Source: an uncultured Clostridia bacterium
Lineage (GTDB): Bacteria; Bacillota; Clostridia; Oscillospirales; QAKW01
NCBI GenBank assembly: GCA_944385895.1
Contig: CALWYZ010000002.1
Location: forward strand, 1 to 64,000
Length of the DNA stretch: 64,000 nucleotides
Direction of reading: 5' to 3'
Part shown: piece after piece, positions 10,350 to 64,000 of the stretch
Layout of the letters: each line of letters opens with the position of its first letter
Position numbering within the stretch: the first letter of the stretch is position 1
Notes under the pieces: generated by a model
Seen by the model: only the letters and a program-made list of their open reading frames with translations
What the model was told of the DNA's origin: nothing
The model's database searches: none
Translations under genes and position numbers: made by a program

Positions 10350-10434
10350 TGGTGGGAGCGGGTGGATTCGAACCACCGTAGCTGATAGCAACAGATTTAC
10401 AGTCTGCCCCCTTTGGCCGCTCGGGAACACTCCC
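10350..10434 (-). tRNA. tRNA-Tyr (GTA)
   Basis: The minus strand gives a complete 85-nt class II tRNA: acceptor GGGAGTG paired with CGCTCCC, a long variable arm, anticodon loop CTGTAAA with anticodon GTA, T-loop GGTTCGAATCC and encoded CCA. It follows tRNA-Thr in one transcript. Confidence 0.95.
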
Positions 10435-10440
10435 AGGTTA

Positions 10441-10515
10441 TGGAGCTGGTGAACGGAGTCGAACCATCAACCTGCTGATTACAAATCAGCTGCTCTGCCA
10501 TTGAGCCACACCAGC
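10441..10515 (-). tRNA. tRNA-Thr (TGT)
   Basis: The minus strand gives a 75-nt tRNA: acceptor GCTGGTG/CACCAGC, anticodon stem CTGAT/ATCAG around loop TTTGTAA (anticodon TGT), T-loop GGTTCGACTCC and encoded CCA. It lies 6 nt upstream of tRNA-Tyr. Confidence 0.95.
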
Positions 10516-23744: not shown

Positions 23745-23763
23745 TTAAAAAATATCAATATTG

Positions 23764-23873
23764 TCTTTTCGGGGCGAGGTGAAAATCCTCACCGGCGGTC
23801 AAAGTCCGCAAGCATTTTGCATGAGCAGGTGAAATTCCTGCACCGACGGTATAGTCCGGATGGTAGAAAAGAT
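23764..23873 (+). promoter_or_regulatory. FMN riboswitch (RFN element)
   Basis: The conserved core is plain: GGGGCGAGGTGAAAATCCTC, ACCGGCGGTCAAAGTCCGC, GCAGGTGAAATTCCTGC and ACCGACGGTATAGTCCGG, closed by TCTTTTC and GAAAAGA at the ends. It senses flavin mononucleotide and controls the downstream riboflavin transporter. It starts only 19 nt after the tuf stop; I see no separate promoter between them. Confidence 0.97.
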
Positions 23874-23886
23874 ATGGCTTTGCTTT

Positions 23887-25175: not shown

Positions 25176-25262
25176 ACTTTTATCAAGAGCGGCGGAGGGA
25201 CAGGCCCTGTGAAGCCCGACAACCTGCATTTTGTAAGGTGTCAATTCCTGACAGATAAATGT
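25176..25262 (+). promoter_or_regulatory. SAM-I (S-box) riboswitch
   Basis: It contains the conserved core TATCAAGAGCGGCGGAGGGA, GGCCCTGTGAAGCCCGACAACC and AAGGTGTCAATTCCTGACAG, closed by P1 TTTATC/GATAAA. It binds S-adenosylmethionine and should shut off metK when SAM is plentiful. Confidence 0.95.
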
Positions 25263-57574: not shown

Positions 57575-58648
57575 TTAATGTAAATTTTTAATAAAATCAT
57601 CAGTAAATTTATTTAAAGCTTTAAAGTCCATTGCATTAATATAAAATTTCTCTAATTCATCATGCTTTGTTTTAATATCTGCTATTCCTTTTGCGGCATT
57701 TGAAGTTAGTTCGCGTATAGTTTTTTTGGCAAATGTTATTTTATTTTTGTTTTCGGAATAGAAATCTTTATTAATATAGCTTTTTGAATTGATTTTTTTA
57801 ATTATTTTGCGCTCGTCTATTTGCGGTGAATAAATATGTCCGCTTGCAATAAAACCAAGTCTCAACTGAGGTATGATTACCTGCTCCAGTCTTTTTTCGG
57901 GAGACAGGGGAGAATGGATAAGCATCGTATTGTAACCCAATTTATTAAAATACAGAGCGGCTTTATTAAGGAATATCCCTGCAATTCCTGCGGTGTCCTC
58001 AATAATAATGTATTCGCTGCAAAGGGTATCGGTCGTTTTGCTGTATGTTATTATCCCGTCTCCTGAGAATGCGGACAGCATTCTGTTTGATATGTTGGGT
58101 TTTGAGGATATTGGAGAAATCGCGTTCTGTTTTATAATCTTTTTTATCTGAGTAGTTATTTTTTCAAAGTCTGTTTTATTTTCAATAAGCATCGACATCC
58201 AGTTTTCCACGCAGCCTGCAGCTTTTAAAAGACTGTACACCGGTTTGTATGCGCAGGATATTTGGGAGAAGAGCTGTCTTATTTGCTGTCTGTTGCATGC
58301 CAGCTTGTTTTCGTCCCAGAATTTGCTCAGATCAATTAACGATTCATACGCCCCCGGAATACTCATTTCATATGCATGCGGTGACGTCGCGTCAATAACG
58401 GATATGTTTTTTTCTTTTATTTGTACTCCGTCAAGACTGTTAGGATCACTGGAGCAATGTATTCGTTCCACAGTCATTCCGTCATCTGCAAATTTGTCTG
58501 CTATTTTTCTCATAAAAGTGCTTTTGCCAGTTCCTGGACCGCCCTTGATAAGGTATACACGATCAAGAGAATTATCGTGAACCAGCTCATCAAAATATGA
58601 AAAAAATCCTTTTTCAGTATTTGCTGCTGTAAATGTATCGTAAATCAT
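57575..58648 (-). CDS. P-loop ATPase of unknown role (PRK06851-like)
   Basis: 357 residues from ATG 58648. Walker A is LIKGGPGTGKSTFMRKIA (residues 33-51). ERIHCSSDPNSLDGVQI and VIDATSPHAYEMSIPGAYES follow; this order matches a Firmicute family with two related ATPase halves found in spore-formers, though its function is not established. The second half (IIEDTAGIAGIFLNKAALYF, LIHSPLSPEKRLEQVIIP) resembles the second half of that family, but I do not see a second canonical Walker A. It is flanked by terminators and stands alone. Confidence 0.75.
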   Translation of the reverse strand: MIYDTFTAANTEKGFFSYFDELVHDNSLDRVYLIKGGPGTGKSTFMRKIADKFADDGMTVERIHCSSDPNSLDGVQIKEKNISVIDATSPHAYEMSIPGAYESLIDLSKFWDENKLACNRQQIRQLFSQISCAYKPVYSLLKAAGCVENWMSMLIENKTDFEKITTQIKKIIKQNAISPISSKPNISNRMLSAFSGDGIITYSKTTDTLCSEYIIIEDTAGIAGIFLNKAALYFNKLGYNTMLIHSPLSPEKRLEQVIIPQLRLGFIASGHIYSPQIDERKIIKKINSKSYINKDFYSENKNKITFAKKTIRELTSNAAKGIADIKTKHDELEKFYINAMDFKALNKFTDDFIKNLH

Positions 58649-58833
58649 AAATCCCCTTTTCCTTTCCGGCAATAGCCGTAATTGTCGCTTTATACTTAAG
58701 CGGCGCTTTGATTTTTAGCAGTTATAAAATACTCTCTGTTTTTATAATATATCAAATAAAAGAAAAGGTTACACAAAATAGTCGGCTGTTGCACACGTGG
58801 TATATGTATGATTGCTCATAAGCAGTAAATAAA

Positions 58834-58864
58834 AAGACCCGTGGGAATTTTTCCCACGGGTCTT
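58834..58864 (-). terminator. Terminator of the glutamate synthase-glnA operon
   Basis: A 14-bp stem AAGACCCGTGGGAA/TTCCCACGGGTCTT with loop TTT, followed on the minus strand by TTTTATTTA. It ends the ANTAR gene's transcript. Confidence 0.9.
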
Positions 58865-58905: not shown

Positions 58906-59490
58906 TTAAGTATAAATTTTTATTATGCAGTTTGCTGCATCTTTTTTTGAAATGCAGTTATCCATTGCATATTTTTCAAGATAATGATGAGCATCAGGCT
59001 CTGTCATTTTCAATTCACTTATGAGCACGCATTTCGCACGGTTGATTATTCGAATTTCTTCCATACGTTCCTCTACTGACAACGTTTTTTTCTCAAGATT
59101 GCCAAGTCGCTCTCTTGCAGCGGCCATCCAGGTAAGAGCCTGTATAAGTGTTGCTTTAGAAATTGGCTTTTGCAGGGCAAATATTCCATTGTCTACCGCT
59201 TTATCGCATATTTCAGCAAAAATGTCGCTTTTGGAAAGTACTAAGACAACTGAAGTCTGTATACGACAGCAATCGATTGCCAATCTAATACCCAATTCAT
59301 CCGGCAGAGGCAAGTTAATAATGACAAAGTCAAAACTTCTCTCAAAAATACAGCGTTTAGCCTCATTTGCGCTTGTTGTAATATGTATCGGCTGATACTT
59401 TGAGGAAGAAAACATTTCGCTGAAAGCAGTATTGAATTTTTCGGAACAAGATACCACAAGTATGCTGTAACCCCGTTCTTTTAAACTCAT
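58906..59490 (-). CDS. ANTAR-domain antiterminator with degenerate receiver
   Basis: 194 residues from ATG 59490 (AAGGAG 7 nt upstream). The N-terminal 120 residues have a CheY-like fold, but the usual acidic pair is SC (residues 14-15, in ILVVSCSEKF) and the phospho-acceptor position is Asn59 (FVIINLPLPDELG). The Lys before Pro (ALQKPI) remains. A short coiled coil (ERMEEIRIINRAKCVLISEL) leads into the C-terminal ANTAR RNA-binding domain (AKCVLI ... MTEPDAHHYLEKYAM ... ISKKDAANCII), which in NasT, EutV and AmiR binds dual-hairpin RNA and blocks terminators. It is last in the nitrogen operon, 27 nt after glnA, pointing to control of nitrogen genes. Ligand or partner instead of phosphorylation is inferred. 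Confidence 0.9.
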   Translation of the reverse strand: MSLKERGYSILVVSCSEKFNTAFSEMFSSSKYQPIHITTSANEAKRCIFERSFDFVIINLPLPDELGIRLAIDCCRIQTSVVLVLSKSDIFAEICDKAVDNGIFALQKPISKATLIQALTWMAAARERLGNLEKKTLSVEERMEEIRIINRAKCVLISELKMTEPDAHHYLEKYAMDNCISKKDAANCIIKIYT

Positions 59491-59516: not shown

Positions 59517-60728
59517 TTATCTGTTACAGTAAATATCTATAATCGATTTTGGAATATGCTTGCTGATAAACTCGCTTTGTTTTGCTATTTCACATGCTTT
59601 TTGCAAAGTCTGAGGGATTGTTTTCATATTATCAAGTATATCGGGGCCGGCTTTAAAAAGATTAAAGTCAGAAACAACTGGAAGATCAAGTTTTCTGTTT
59701 ATGCCGTCAAGTCCGGCATAAATAATCAGAGCAAATGCAAGATACGGATTTGCTGTCGGATCAGGTGAGCGCAGCTCTGCACGTCTGTATTCACCGATAG
59801 CTGCCGGTATTCTTACAAGCTGGCTTCTGTTTTCGCTTGACCATGAAATGTATTTAGGCGCTTTATCATGGCCAAAACGCAGATAGGAATCTGGCAGGGG
59901 ATTAAAAAAAGCGGTCATTTGTGCTGTTTTATCCAAAATTCCCCCGATTACATACGGCAGATTATCATCACCGTTTGCTGATTTGACGGAAATGTTTATA
60001 TGGAATCCGTTACCTGGCTGATCTTTAAGCGGCTTTGGCGAAAAATCTGCATAAAGTCCGTTTCTTCGGGCAACAGTTTTGACTACTGTCTGAAAAGTCA
60101 GTACATTGTCAGCTGCGGTAAGCGGATCTGAGTATCTGAAATCAATTTCATTTTGTCCGGGCCCTTCCTCATGATGAGAGCTTTCCGGACGTATCCCCAT
60201 TTGTTCAAGTGTAAGACAGATCTCCCGACGAACGTTTTCTCCTTTGTCTTCTGGAGCAATGTCCATATATCCCGCAGTGTCATATGGTTGGCTTGTAGCA
60301 TTGCCTTGCTGATCTAGAGTAAACAGATAAAACTCCTGCTCGGCGCCAAAGAAAAATGAAATCCCGGCCTGTGCTGCTTGGTCAACGGCCTTTTTAAGCA
60401 AGCTGCGCGTATCACAGTCAAAAATTTTTCCTGACGGATGTGTTATACTACTGAACATACGCACAACTTTGCCGTGTTCCGGCCTCCATGGCAGAACAGC
60501 CAGGGTTTCGCTTTCAGGTTTTAAAAAGAGGTCAGAGTGTGTTTCGTCACCGAAACCTTTTATGGAAGATGCATCAAAAGCAATACCGTATTCAAAAGCC
60601 CGAGGCAGTTCCTGTGGCATTATCGAAATATTCTTCTGCTTACCGAAAACATCGCAAAACGCCAGACGTATAAATTTTACGTCATCTTCCTGTATATACT
60701 GAATTACCTCTTCTTTTGAATATTTCAT
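59517..60728 (-). CDS. glnA: Glutamine synthetase type I (short form)
   Basis: 403 residues, shorter than the usual about 440-470 residues of GSI. It makes glutamine from glutamate, ammonia and ATP. FDASSIKGFGDETHSDLFLKP is the N-terminal beta-grasp end; the catalytic barrel has FFGAEQEFYLF, GPGQNEIDFRY, NGFHINISV and SSENRSQLVRIPA plus RRAELRSPDPTANPYLAFA. The missing length is at the C-terminus. The adenylylation loop of GlnE-controlled enzymes is not evident, as in other Firmicutes. It lies 18 nt after the GXGXG gene; an ANTAR regulator follows. Confidence 0.95.
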   Translation of the reverse strand: MKYSKEEVIQYIQEDDVKFIRLAFCDVFGKQKNISIMPQELPRAFEYGIAFDASSIKGFGDETHSDLFLKPESETLAVLPWRPEHGKVVRMFSSITHPSGKIFDCDTRSLLKKAVDQAAQAGISFFFGAEQEFYLFTLDQQGNATSQPYDTAGYMDIAPEDKGENVRREICLTLEQMGIRPESSHHEEGPGQNEIDFRYSDPLTAADNVLTFQTVVKTVARRNGLYADFSPKPLKDQPGNGFHINISVKSANGDDNLPYVIGGILDKTAQMTAFFNPLPDSYLRFGHDKAPKYISWSSENRSQLVRIPAAIGEYRRAELRSPDPTANPYLAFALIIYAGLDGINRKLDLPVVSDFNLFKAGPDILDNMKTIPQTLQKACEIAKQSEFISKHIPKSIIDIYCNR

Positions 60729-60746: not shown

Positions 60747-61466
60747 TTAATTGGCAACATACATCTGCTTGTATGGGTTTTTGCTGTCAGGAGTAATTAC
60801 CGAAAACTGTGATTTCAGTATATCCTTTGTTTCAAATCCGAACAGACTGCAGAATTCTGAAAGATTTTCTTTCACAGATTCCATATCCGAGCTATCTGCG
60901 GTTGTTACGCAGACATTGCTAGGAAATTTAATACCGCTTATATCGCCTCTGAGAAAAATTTTTCCTCCGTGCATTCCCGTGCAGGGAAAATTACCGACGA
61001 TTTTTTTGTCATTTTTATCAAGGCCTAAAACTATAATAATGCCGCCTGCCTGATATTCGCCGAGGAAACTGCCCGTAATACCACCTATTATCATAACGGG
61101 TACTTTGTTTTTGTACTCTTTCATATGTATACCTGCACGATAGCCTGCGTTGCCTTTTACATAGATTTTGCCTCCGCGCATTGCGTAACCTGCAGCGTCC
61201 CCGGTGTTGCCGTGTATTACTATTTGTCCGTCGTTCATAGTGTCTCCGACTGCGTCCTGAGCATTAGCGTTTACTGTTATTGATGCACCGTTGAGATATG
61301 CTCCCAGAGCGTTGCCTGGCACACCGTCAATGGTAATATTCTTCCCACTCATGCCTGCCCCTATAAATCTTTGCCCGCAGCAACCGGTTATATGGCATTT
61401 ATCGCTGACATCCCGTATTTTTTCGTTAAGAGATTTATAATCCAAACCATTTACATTCAGTACCAT
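60747..61466 (-). CDS. Glutamate synthase GXGXG domain subunit
   Basis: 239 residues, the third domain of glutamate synthase alpha chain as a separate protein, as in archaea and clostridia. It is a right-handed beta-helix made of repeated GxxGxxxGxxxxG units (VPGNALGAYLNGASITVN, GNTGDAAGYAMRGGKIYVKG). In the large enzyme this domain supports the FMN domain. The ATG at 61466 has GGAGG 14 nt upstream, slightly far; a GTG at 61481 is directly against that site and less likely. It overlaps the stop of the preceding FAD gene's ribosome region by spacing of 4 nt. Confidence 0.92.
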   Translation of the reverse strand: MVLNVNGLDYKSLNEKIRDVSDKCHITGCCGQRFIGAGMSGKNITIDGVPGNALGAYLNGASITVNANAQDAVGDTMNDGQIVIHGNTGDAAGYAMRGGKIYVKGNAGYRAGIHMKEYKNKVPVMIIGGITGSFLGEYQAGGIIIVLGLDKNDKKIVGNFPCTGMHGGKIFLRGDISGIKFPSNVCVTTADSSDMESVKENLSEFCSLFGFETKDILKSQFSVITPDSKNPYKQMYVAN

Positions 61467-61470
61467 TTTA

Positions 61471-62718
61471 TTATACCACACCTCCGAATTGTTTTCTACG
61501 TTTTTTTTCAGAAAATGCCGTAAAAGTCGGAATATTTTTCAGCAATTCAAAGTTTATTGTGTCAAGAGGCACCTGATTGCGTATAAGTGAAGTGAAAATA
61601 CCGGCTTTTTCAGTCTCGTTTATAAAAATATATCCTTTAAGTACACCGTCATCCACAAAAAACTTTTTGGCTGATGTATCTTCCATCTGTGTGTCTGTAA
61701 GACTGCTGTCATTACCGGAAATATAGCTTCCTGCGGTCATGACATGGTATCCGAAAAGTCCTATAGAGTTCATAGGGATCGCATTGTCAAATACTGCTGA
61801 ACCCGATGCCATGTTAACCCCAGCGGTAAATCCCTGCATATAGGCATTTGGCAGAAGAGCAAGAACACGGTCTGATTTCAAAGAAGCGTCATAGCCCTCT
61901 GTGCAGTCTCCTGCTGCATATATATCATCAAGACTTGTCTTCATGTGTTCATCAATTAAAATACCTCGGTTTACCTTTCCATTAGCGTCTGATACCAATG
62001 ATATATTCGGACGGACTCCTACTGCGGTTATAAGGATATCAAAGTCTACAACTTTTTTGCTTTTCATAACTGCTTTTCCGTCTTCAAAGTAGTCGACGCT
62101 ATCCGACAGCAGCAGCTCTATTCCTATGTCTTTTAAATGTTTTTCTATTATAGGTGATGTATCTTTATCAAGAATACTGGAAAGTATCATGTCCGACAGA
62201 TCGCATACCGTTATTTTTGCAACTCGGTTGTGAAGTCCCTCTGCGCACTTGAGTCCTATCAGACCTGCTCCCACTATAAGGACTTTGGACTCTTTGGTTA
62301 TTACTTTTTCTATTTCTAAAGCATCATCCAGAGAGATAAACGAAAAACGATGCTTCACGTTTTCAATCCCTTTGAATTGAGGCGTAAACGGAGACGATCC
62401 AGTTGCTATACATAATGTTGTATAGTGTAGTTCTGTACCGTCGGAAAGCTTGACGGTTTTATTGACAGTATCAATCTTATCAGCTGTTTTGTTATATATC
62501 ACATCACAGTTATTTACTTTATAAAAATCATCAGGCCGGTAATTGATATGATCCAGACTGGTTTTGCCTTCAAGATAATAGGAAATAAGCGGACGACAGT
62601 ATACCGGATGATTTTCTTTAGAGACAACAGTGATGCTGCCGTTTTTATCCTTGCTTCTTATCCCTTCAATGCAGCCGGCAGCCGCAATACCATTTCCGAT
62701 AATGACATATTGTTTCAT
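61471..62718 (-). CDS. FAD/NAD(P)H-dependent oxidoreductase of the glutamate synthase operon
   Basis: 415 residues from ATG 62718 (GGAGAG about 9 nt upstream). The FAD-binding motif is YVIIGNGIAAAG and the NAD(P)H motif is VLIVGAGLIGLKCAEGL; DIYAAGDCTEG is the second FAD motif. The class resembles NirB/rubredoxin reductase-like enzymes, with VYCRPLISYYLEGK. It should pass electrons from NAD(P)H to the 4Fe-4S protein and the glutamate synthase FMN domain. The C-terminal extension after 350 (KGYIFINETEKAGIF) is typical. Confidence 0.9.
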   Translation of the reverse strand: MKQYVIIGNGIAAAGCIEGIRSKDKNGSITVVSKENHPVYCRPLISYYLEGKTSLDHINYRPDDFYKVNNCDVIYNKTADKIDTVNKTVKLSDGTELHYTTLCIATGSSPFTPQFKGIENVKHRFSFISLDDALEIEKVITKESKVLIVGAGLIGLKCAEGLHNRVAKITVCDLSDMILSSILDKDTSPIIEKHLKDIGIELLLSDSVDYFEDGKAVMKSKKVVDFDILITAVGVRPNISLVSDANGKVNRGILIDEHMKTSLDDIYAAGDCTEGYDASLKSDRVLALLPNAYMQGFTAGVNMASGSAVFDNAIPMNSIGLFGYHVMTAGSYISGNDSSLTDTQMEDTSAKKFFVDDGVLKGYIFINETEKAGIFTSLIRNQVPLDTINFELLKNIPTFTAFSEKKRRKQFGGVV

Positions 62719-62722
62719 CTTA

Positions 62723-63151
62723 TTATCTCTCCTCATAAACAATCGCTTTGTTTGGGCACCCGGCAACACAAGCGGGTCCGGACACTGAGTTTTCAATGCA
62801 TAACTCGCATTTCTGTACAGTTCCGTGTTCTGAAACCGAAAGGGCACCGTAAGGACATACCAGTATGCATGTCAGACATCCTACGCATTTATCGGTATCA
62901 ACACAGATTCTGCCGTCGACTTTATGTAAGGCTCCTGAAATGCAGCTCTTTACACAAATAGGATCCTGACAATGCCGACATGAAACCGCAAAATTGATTT
63001 TATCATCTCCGTCCACCGTTATTCTGGGAAAAATCTGTTTTCCTTTTAAAGCTTTTACCATGTCTGAGATACCTGAATTTGCAAAAGCGCAGTTATATTC
63101 GCAAAGATGACATCCTAAACACCATTCTTCATTTACATATACACGTTTCAT
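62723..63151 (-). CDS. 4Fe-4S ferredoxin-type electron transfer protein
   Basis: 142 residues from ATG 63151 (AAGGAG about 9 nt upstream). Four cysteine groups are visible: CLGCHLCEYNC, CRHCQDPICVKSC, CVGCLTCILVCP and CELCIENSVSGPACVAGCP, enough for three to four [4Fe-4S] clusters. The first group is broken by a HLCEYNC spacing. It resembles the HycB/DmsB-like electron-carrier subunits, here serving the split glutamate synthase. It lies 12 nt after the FMN-domain gene and 4 nt before the FAD gene. Confidence 0.92.
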   Translation of the reverse strand: MKRVYVNEEWCLGCHLCEYNCAFANSGISDMVKALKGKQIFPRITVDGDDKINFAVSCRHCQDPICVKSCISGALHKVDGRICVDTDKCVGCLTCILVCPYGALSVSEHGTVQKCELCIENSVSGPACVAGCPNKAIVYEER

Positions 63152-63163
63152 ACAATTCACTCC

Positions 63164-64000
63164 TTATTCTCCGGCATGGGAGATACCGAGTATCTCCAGC
63201 TCTTTATCAGTAAGACCGATACCGCGCAGCATCAGTCTGTTACCTTTTAGAGCCTCTATTGAGTTGATACCCATACCGCCCATAAGCTCCTTTATCTCAT
63301 GTCTCCATGCGTTCATAAGATTTATAAGACGCTGGCTTCCAATTTCAGGATTCAGTCGTTTTACAAGTTCAGGCTGCTGAGTTGCTATGCCCCAGTTGCA
63401 TTTACCGCTTTGACATGTTCTGCACAAATGACAGCCTAAGGCAAGCAATGCTGCGGTTGCGATATAGCAGGCGTCAGCGCCTAAAGCTATTGCTTTTACA
63501 ACATCTGCTGAGCTGCGGATACTGCCTCCCACAACGATAGAAACATTATTGCGTATGCCCTCGTCTCTAAGTCTTTTATCAACAGACGCCAGAGCCAATT
63601 CAATAGGGATACCGACGTTATCTCTGATTCTTGTCGGAGCAGCGCCTGTGCCTCCCCTGAACCCGTCGATTGCTATTATATCAGCCCCGCTTCTTGCAAT
63701 TCCGCTGGCAATGGCTGCAATGTTGTGAACCGCAGCAACTTTAACTATAATAGGCTTTTTATATTCAGTTGCTTCTTTAAGAGAAAACACCAGCTGACGC
63801 AGATCCTCAATAGAGTATATATCATGATGCGGAGCAGGGGAAATTGCATCAGAGCCTTCCGGTATCATTCGCGTGCGAGAAACATCTCCTACAATTTTGG
63901 TGCCAGGCAGGTGTCCGCCGATACCGGGCTTTGCTCCTTGACCCATTTTTATTTCTATTGCAGCGCCTGCTTCAAGATAGTCTTTATATACGCCGAAACG
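63164..64000 (-). CDS. gltB: Glutamate synthase FMN-binding (central) domain subunit, N-terminus outside window
   Basis: 278 residues are visible; the frame is still open at base 64000. It is the FMN/TIM-barrel domain that makes glutamate from 2-oxoglutarate and ammonia. KMGQGAKPGIGGHLPG, SPAPHHDIYSIEDLRQLVF, IAIDGFRGGTGAAPT and VGGSIRSSADVVKAIALGAD are all diagnostic, and the 3Fe-4S cysteines are in ALGCHLCRTCQSGKCNWGIAT. The C-terminal end (GLTDKELEILGI) is complete. It is first in the visible part of the operon; the amidotransferase subunit (class II GATase) is expected upstream, beyond the window. Confidence 0.95.
   Translation of the reverse strand, partial: RFGVYKDYLEAGAAIEIKMGQGAKPGIGGHLPGTKIVGDVSRTRMIPEGSDAISPAPHHDIYSIEDLRQLVFSLKEATEYKKPIIVKVAAVHNIAAIASGIARSGADIIAIDGFRGGTGAAPTRIRDNVGIPIELALASVDKRLRDEGIRNNVSIVVGGSIRSSADVVKAIALGADACYIATAALLALGCHLCRTCQSGKCNWGIATQQPELVKRLNPEIGSQRLINLMNAWRHEIKELMGGMGINSIEALKGNRLMLRGIGLTDKELEILGISHAGE

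Follow-up and report, generated by a model that had tools for sequence, protein, structure and literature searches.

The gene on the minus strand at positions 58906-59490 of the stretch of DNA analysed here (the window; 64,000 nucleotides, contig positions 1-64000) encodes a NitR-like REC-ANTAR protein which, in all likelihood, acts as a phosphorylation-independent antiterminator on attenuators with a single hexaloop at transcript +1, serving the gltB operon and the glnN-amtB/P-II genes. We propose that this pseudo-receiver ANTAR protein controls exactly two divergent units, its own gltB operon and glnN-amtB/P-II. From a near-consensus promoter, the transcript would open with one A1/G4 hexaloop hairpin, whose loop and 3' strand would also form the 5' arm of a stronger terminator, leading to premature termination by default. 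The protein, probably as a dimer held by its long helix, would capture the loop G as the hairpin leaves the RNA polymerase and keep the terminator from forming, which would turn the operon on. Because the ANTAR gene lies in an operon that its own product would open, positive feedback is predicted. The input is likelier to come from a ligand or a partner protein, be it glutamine synthetase (GS) or another, that acts on the pseudo-receiver than from a kinase. We also lean towards a wider reading, in which a large branch of gut Clostridia would use one-hairpin ANTAR antitermination, the hexaloop making up roughly the first 20 nt of the RNA, the upstream P1 hairpin being dispensable and a phosphorylation-independent pseudo-receiver being set by nitrogen-assimilation machinery of the same operon.

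By its sequence the protein is a member of the REC-ANTAR antiterminators. It comprises 194 amino acids from an ATG, and this start, with MSLKE, is common to its homologs; an alternative TTG start seven codons upstream is possible. The match to Pfam ANTAR scores 52.7 bits (E 3.5e-14, curated cut-off 27.3), in agreement with the preliminary description, which had called this domain (58921-59073, minus strand) intact, and the receiver family PF00072 scores 29.3 bits, slightly below its cut-off of 30.2. With one PF03861 match in 1.95 Mb of genome, it is the sole ANTAR protein there. A protein search recovered a homolog in 37 of 59 genomes, its own included. At least 80 loci exist in named genomes, and the best 80 of a longer list, to which counts for named homologs and loci refer throughout, span Lachnospiraceae, Oscillospiraceae, Christensenella and other Clostridia.

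The ANTAR gene ends an operon on the minus strand that starts at contig position 65766, 1.8 kb beyond the window end, and has the order gltB1-gltB2-FeS-oxidoreductase-gltB3-glnA-antar. The GltB1 amidotransferase (contig 64669-65766) lies outside the window, upstream of a GltB2-like glutamate synthase FMN domain protein that begins in the window at 63164-64000, is cut by its end and runs to contig 64669. These are followed, likewise on the minus strand, by a 4Fe-4S electron-transfer subunit (62723-63160; Fer4_11), an NAD(P)H/FAD oxidoreductase subunit (61471-62718; Pyr_redox_2), a GltB3-like glutamate synthase GXGXG subunit (60747-61481; Pfam GXGXG) and glnA (59517-60728), a short type-I GS of 403 aa that is separated from the co-directional ANTAR gene by 26 nt. 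We take nitR of Clostridium saccharobutylicum to lie after glnA as well. An inverted repeat with a T run at 58830-58864 (minus strand), read from the sequence by eye, is the likely operon terminator; it separates the ANTAR gene from a gene at 57575-58672 (minus strand) for a PRK06851-like P-loop ATPase, which falls below the family cut-off and to which we assign no function. Divergent to the operon lie glnN (type III GS), an AmtB-P-II fusion and asnB. The short GS-I and the GSIII are divergently transcribed from a shared control region (L046:8767-9178, where L046 is the locus at contig 57001-77000), an arrangement that recurs in relatives, and AmtB with its fused C-terminal P-II domain is encoded outside the window at contig 68262-70046 (L046:11262-13046). 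As read, the operon holds neither a kinase gene nor an AmiC-like gene. Elsewhere the window contains an FMN riboswitch (23761-23875, plus strand, 109 bits) and a SAM riboswitch (25177-25261, plus strand, 73.9 bits), both above gathering score, and two adjacent tRNA genes (10353-10434 and 10444-10515, minus strand); no ANTAR-like Rfam family reaches gathering score in it.

The linkage to GS is near-complete among the named loci listed: the gene that immediately precedes the ANTAR gene is one for GS (glnA) at 74 of the best 80, and the other six are undecidable, being too near a sequence end. Among the 30 best class-level loci, a GS lies within the fetched flank in 28. It is possible, and we hold it as a tentative refinement of the best explanation rather than as an alternative to it, that the linked short GS-I is the sensor, which would bind the pseudo-receiver in nitrogen excess and sequester the antiterminator as AmiC does AmiR. 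The linked enzymes are uniform in size (391-416 aa in 67 of the 69 that are measurable, exactly 403 in 45), retain their catalytic motifs and share an ending that resembles I-L-D-I-Y-C or comes close to ILDIYCNK. Adjacency alone, however, proves no contact, and we rate the GS low as the partner because no other positive evidence supports it. These enzymes lack the C-terminal tail of solved GS, and where other GS-I have an Arg they carry an Asp (66 of the 70 with a residue there; D61 in our sequence). In the GS of B. subtilis this Arg mediates glutamine feedback; a copy of the TnrA/GlnR scheme is therefore not favoured for a short GS that has neither feedback Arg nor tail. A canonical feedback-inhibited GS as sensor is likewise weakened by D61 and the missing tail. 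A free P-II protein was rejected as the sensor, as the genome's single P-II domain is part of the AmtB fusion, and this fused AmtB/P-II could sense nitrogen equally well.

The fold of the protein was modelled with AlphaFold2 from 29 sequences (pLDDT 87.9, pTM 0.67). The model and its fold matches have the layout of a CheY-like N-terminal domain, a long helix and a three-helix ANTAR domain. Over the full length, RNA-bound EutV is the best match (6ww6_B, TM 0.77; the EutV structures matched are 6ww6/6wsh), followed by AmiR (0.64) and Rv1626 (0.58). The EutV residues K143, K147, Tyr164 and Met172, which contact RNA, correspond to R147, R151, His168 and Met176 of the ANTAR domain here; the exchange of Tyr for His at 168 is a difference from EutV, and EutV R142 is matched by Ile146. 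Among the best 80 named homologs listed, R147, His168 and Met176 are present in all 80, R151 in 70, with Lys in a further nine. RNA binding by the protein is predicted. It probably dimerizes by way of the long helix, which is uninterrupted from residue 112 to 160 in the model, although a single-chain model cannot show dimerization.

The same features would suit a pseudo-receiver that is a constitutive dimerization module, with no ligand and with control by dosage and positive feedback only. We consider this rather improbable. The uninterrupted helix, as in the active EutV dimer, and the closer match of the model to RNA-bound EutV than to monomeric Rv1626 speak for it as far as a model of one chain can, but the conservation of Pro61, Asp64 and Pro109 in all of the best 80 named homologs listed suggests a kept receiver function, and it would be unusual for a nitrogen operon to receive no signal.

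That the receiver is not switched in the canonical way is indicated by its residues. The preliminary description had read an Asn at the phospho-acceptor position, residue 59, and no acidic pair, and both readings are correct: in a phmmer alignment, Asn59 (codon 59314-59316, minus strand) pairs with the Asp of 'VIMD' in Rv1626, and Ser14-Cys15 (59446-59451, minus strand) take the place of the acidic pair. The acceptor Asp and the acidic pair of a phosphorylation-controlled regulator of the EutV type are thus replaced; the receiver Lys is retained as Lys108. Asn59 and Ser14 each occur in 80 of the best 80 named homologs listed, in all of which residue 15 is Ala, Ser or Val, and Lys108 occurs in 74. 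In the 30 best class-level loci, residue 59 is Asn in 26, Asp in two and His in two. As judged from these sequences, Asn59 together with Ser14 is a family trait and not a one-off, and phosphorylation at the usual Asp is excluded across the family. The earlier suggestion that a partner or ligand rather than a kinase exerts control is borne out to this extent, in that the usual Asp and the acidic pair are absent from all of the best 80 named homologs listed; for the partner itself it stays a proposal. There is only a slim chance that the receiver is still phosphorylated by a histidine kinase at another residue, e.g., Asp64: this residue and Lys108 are widely conserved and two class-level homologs do have an Asp at 59, but the family-wide loss of acceptor and acidic pair and the lack of a kinase gene in the operon argue against it. 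Asp is common at the position of Asp64 in normal receivers, so its conservation is no evidence of phosphorylation.

In the preliminary description no ANTAR-type dual hairpin was seen in the short gaps of the operon and the targets were expected elsewhere, such as upstream of it. The gaps of 26 and 18 nt leave no room for a hairpin target, and three strong candidate sites lie upstream as anticipated; a complete absence of ANTAR-type RNA targets from the genome, which had been named as grounds for abandoning the idea, was not what was found. The three sites fall in a divergent control region of 412 bp outside the window (contig 65767-66178), between the gltB operon and glnN-amtB/P-II. In this region lie several terminators and, on either strand, a promoter that matches the consensus at 11 of 12 bases. 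The candidate hexaloop hairpin-terminator sites are at contig 65836-65857 (minus strand), 65981-66002 and 66104-66125 (both plus strand), a single one ahead of gltB1 and a tandem pair ahead of glnN, and have the loops A-A-A-G-G-C, A-A-A-G-A-C and A-A-G-G-G-T (found by eye, then by script). At each, the loop and 3' strand of the hairpin are also the 5' arm of an overlapping terminator. The terminator folds have -33.8, -24.6 and -23.4 kcal/mol compared to -18.2, -10.5 and -9.6 kcal/mol with the hairpin forced; folding prefers the terminator by about 14-16 kcal/mol at each of the three sites, and termination is therefore the predicted default.

A covariance model (R1) built from 42 hairpins, 36 of them distinct, finds three strong sites in the genome, all in the control region (E 1.2e-5, 4.7e-4 and 3.9e-3); the next match has E 0.086. 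The pattern RGCAANGRYGTY means nothing on its own, as it matches the genome 25 times and a reversed control 22 times, and among these matches only the three of the control region have stems of at least 6 bp and terminators. Rfam gave only implausible weak matches on the control region.

The hairpins recur in relatives above chance. A scan of 34 loci, from relatives and the genome itself, gave 67 matches against 5-10 in five shuffled sets. Pair counting in the hairpin alignment gave 53 cells in which both sides had changed; shuffles gave 23.3, and slid alignments no more than 16. The count is biased because the aligned sequences had been chosen for stems of at least 5 bp. CAANGRYG sites, listed with no stem asked for, avoid this selection: those of the best 80 named loci listed that have a promoter of at least 10/12 just upstream carry a stem of at least 5 bp in 90 of 94 cases, the other sites in 76 of 962, and some of these 76 are second glnN modules. 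In a free-loop test, which escapes this selection as well, the strongest promoter before GltB1 and GlnN starts was taken at 114 loci, together with the best hairpin near +1 with a loop of 3-9 nt and any sequence. A hexaloop was best in 48 of 57 promoter-linked GltB1 leaders and 40 of 58 GlnN leaders (88/115), and all 88 hexaloops have A at position 1 and G at position 4. The leaders without a hexaloop as best hairpin (9/57 GltB1, 18/58 GlnN) have another loop size or no hairpin, and 2 of 59 GltB1 and 10 of 68 GlnN regions were left unscored for want of a 10/12 promoter. As controls, none of 23 AsnB regions has a 10/12 promoter, and of 66 GltB2 regions ten have one, none with a hexaloop. The leaders thus combine an A1/G4 hexaloop on a short stem with an overlapping intrinsic terminator.

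An inverted repeat just after the -10 box is also typically placed for a DNA operator, but that the repeat at +1 serves a repressor and only happens to coincide with terminator-like structures is highly improbable, since stem pair 7-16, as a G.U in 31 of the 36 distinct sequences, breaks the symmetry of a DNA site, the gltB and glnN stems differ within a genome and their loops agree, second glnN modules have no promoter, terminators overlap each hairpin, and A1/G4 is the published ANTAR loop rule (PMC3369931).

The hairpins are single rather than dual. Among 56 distinct modules of relatives, 44 have a promoter just upstream, compared to 221 of 4000 random positions; many of these promoters are a perfect TTGACA-17-TATAAT, and the stem mostly begins 6-10 nt after the -10 box. 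In the best 80 named loci listed, all 94 sites have loop A1 at a distance of 13-17 nt downstream of the -10 box. This spacing would put the hairpin at, or a few nt from, +1 and hence leave no room for a second hexaloop hairpin (P1) close upstream, as dual RNAs have. None of the 94 has an A1/G4 hexaloop between the predicted start and the stem, a space of 2 nt on average. Extra A1/G4 hexaloops are no more frequent than by chance, with 5/94 down to the T tract against 5.4 in shuffles and 11/94 over 60 nt upstream of the -10 box against 15.3 (best 80 named loci listed), and in relatives with 7/56 upstream (shuffles 5.4) and 7/56 downstream (5.85). The leaders of glnN often have two modules with a terminator apiece, and the first must therefore work alone. 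Dual-hairpin targets were considered and rejected: a dual with a terminator occurred in 8 of 228 strands (114 loci) and in 3 of one shuffle, and the dual matches listed resembled chance or a main hairpin with a weak neighbour. The scan likewise found no dual at seven loci that surround a second or a more distant ANTAR gene, and it therefore lacks a positive control. The paired hexaloop hairpins envisaged at the outset were not what was seen: the candidate targets, which lie before nitrogen genes, bear a single A1/G4 hexaloop at the predicted transcript start. As a NitR-like REC-ANTAR member whose RNA targets, by their sequences, lack the dual hairpin, the system is to be called a single-hexaloop variant. 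An objection to the proposed mechanism is that published work on EutV finds both hexaloops needed for antitermination (PMC8934654, PMC3369931).

The distribution of modules delimits the putative regulon. Of the GltB1 and GlnN starts, 54 of 59 and 61 of 69 are preceded by a hairpin module at 700 nt or less, compared to 3 of 31 AmtB and 0 of 24 AsnB starts; 74 of 234 distinct modules have none of the tested genes downstream, and some of these are chance matches. Among the 59 relatives, R1 has a best E below 1e-3 in 23 genomes, 21 with an ANTAR protein match and two without (G011 and G032), whose R1 matches show no terminator by inspection; this co-occurrence is circular in part, as the loci used to build R1 themselves bear ANTAR genes. 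Among 118 class genomes, R1 reaches E <= 1e-3 in 15, of which only 12 have an ANTAR gene, several of these matches (e.g., in G120, G136 and G151) being chance-like and without terminator, and three do not (G094, G062 and G110). G094 is an exception that tells against the proposed antiterminator, as this genome (97% complete) has glnN-type hairpin modules, but neither an ANTAR gene nor a short GS. Its contig C57 (locus L265), however, ends one base after a gltB-type hairpin match, and we infer that the operon probably falls in an assembly gap.

If the proposed mechanism is correct, co-transcriptional ANTAR antitermination would not depend on two hexaloops in every case, a question that Walshe et al. 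(2022) did not settle. It would provide dozens of naturally occurring attenuators with a single hexaloop and a strong promoter, some of them in cultured gut bacteria, together with a protein that phosphorylation of the usual Asp cannot switch. Cultured relatives with such a locus include Neglectibacter timonensis (L142) and Mediterraneibacter glycyrrhizinilyticus (L158). Both the sufficiency of one hairpin and the source of the nitrogen signal to the ANTAR protein would become testable, and the GS/GOGAT genes of many gut Clostridia may be under control of this kind.

Published ANTAR systems provide both parallels and differences. In current models, one hexaloop recruits the protein and the other blocks the terminator. 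The dual hexaloop was defined, and genomes were searched with the dual motif, by Ramesh et al. 2012 (PMC3369931). According to Walshe et al. 2022 (PMC8934654), a single hexaloop constitutes the unit of binding and is enough for it, EutV antitermination needs both hexaloops and a dimer, and the role of single hexaloops is left open with a call for bioinformatic work. Beyond this remark, the open-access literature searched yielded no paper on single-hexaloop ANTAR attenuators. ANTAR RNAs predicted by covariance search before glutamate synthase genes of Desulfotomaculum reducens and others (PMC3369931) resemble the leaders described here, but that search demanded a dual hairpin and would therefore have missed leaders with a single hexaloop.

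The eut leaders of Enterococcus faecalis and their regulator EutV share with our system the layout of receiver, coiled coil and ANTAR domain and an A1/G4 hexaloop that overlaps the terminator. EutV, however, requires phosphorylation at Asp54 and two hexaloops (PMC3369931, PMC8934654), whereas here Asn59 is combined with one hexaloop at +1, and the EutV Tyr164 that stacks on G4 (PMC8934654) is replaced by a His168 that is invariant among the best 80 named homologs listed. AmiR of Pseudomonas aeruginosa is likewise a pseudo-receiver without phosphorylation residues, controlled by its partner AmiC (PMC8934654). By contrast, the operon here has no counterpart of amiC, the fold match to AmiR is weaker than that to EutV, and the amiE leader is a dual hairpin (PMC3369931), unlike the single ones here. 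A close parallel is NitR of Clostridium saccharobutylicum (Stutz et al. 2007), which PMC6316151 summarises as an ANTAR antiterminator of GS/GOGAT genes on nitrogen limitation. The protein described here is encoded downstream of glnA in nearly all of the named loci listed and has candidate sites before gltB and glnN, control of which it would exert; the likeness to NitR lies in this gene order and in these target genes.
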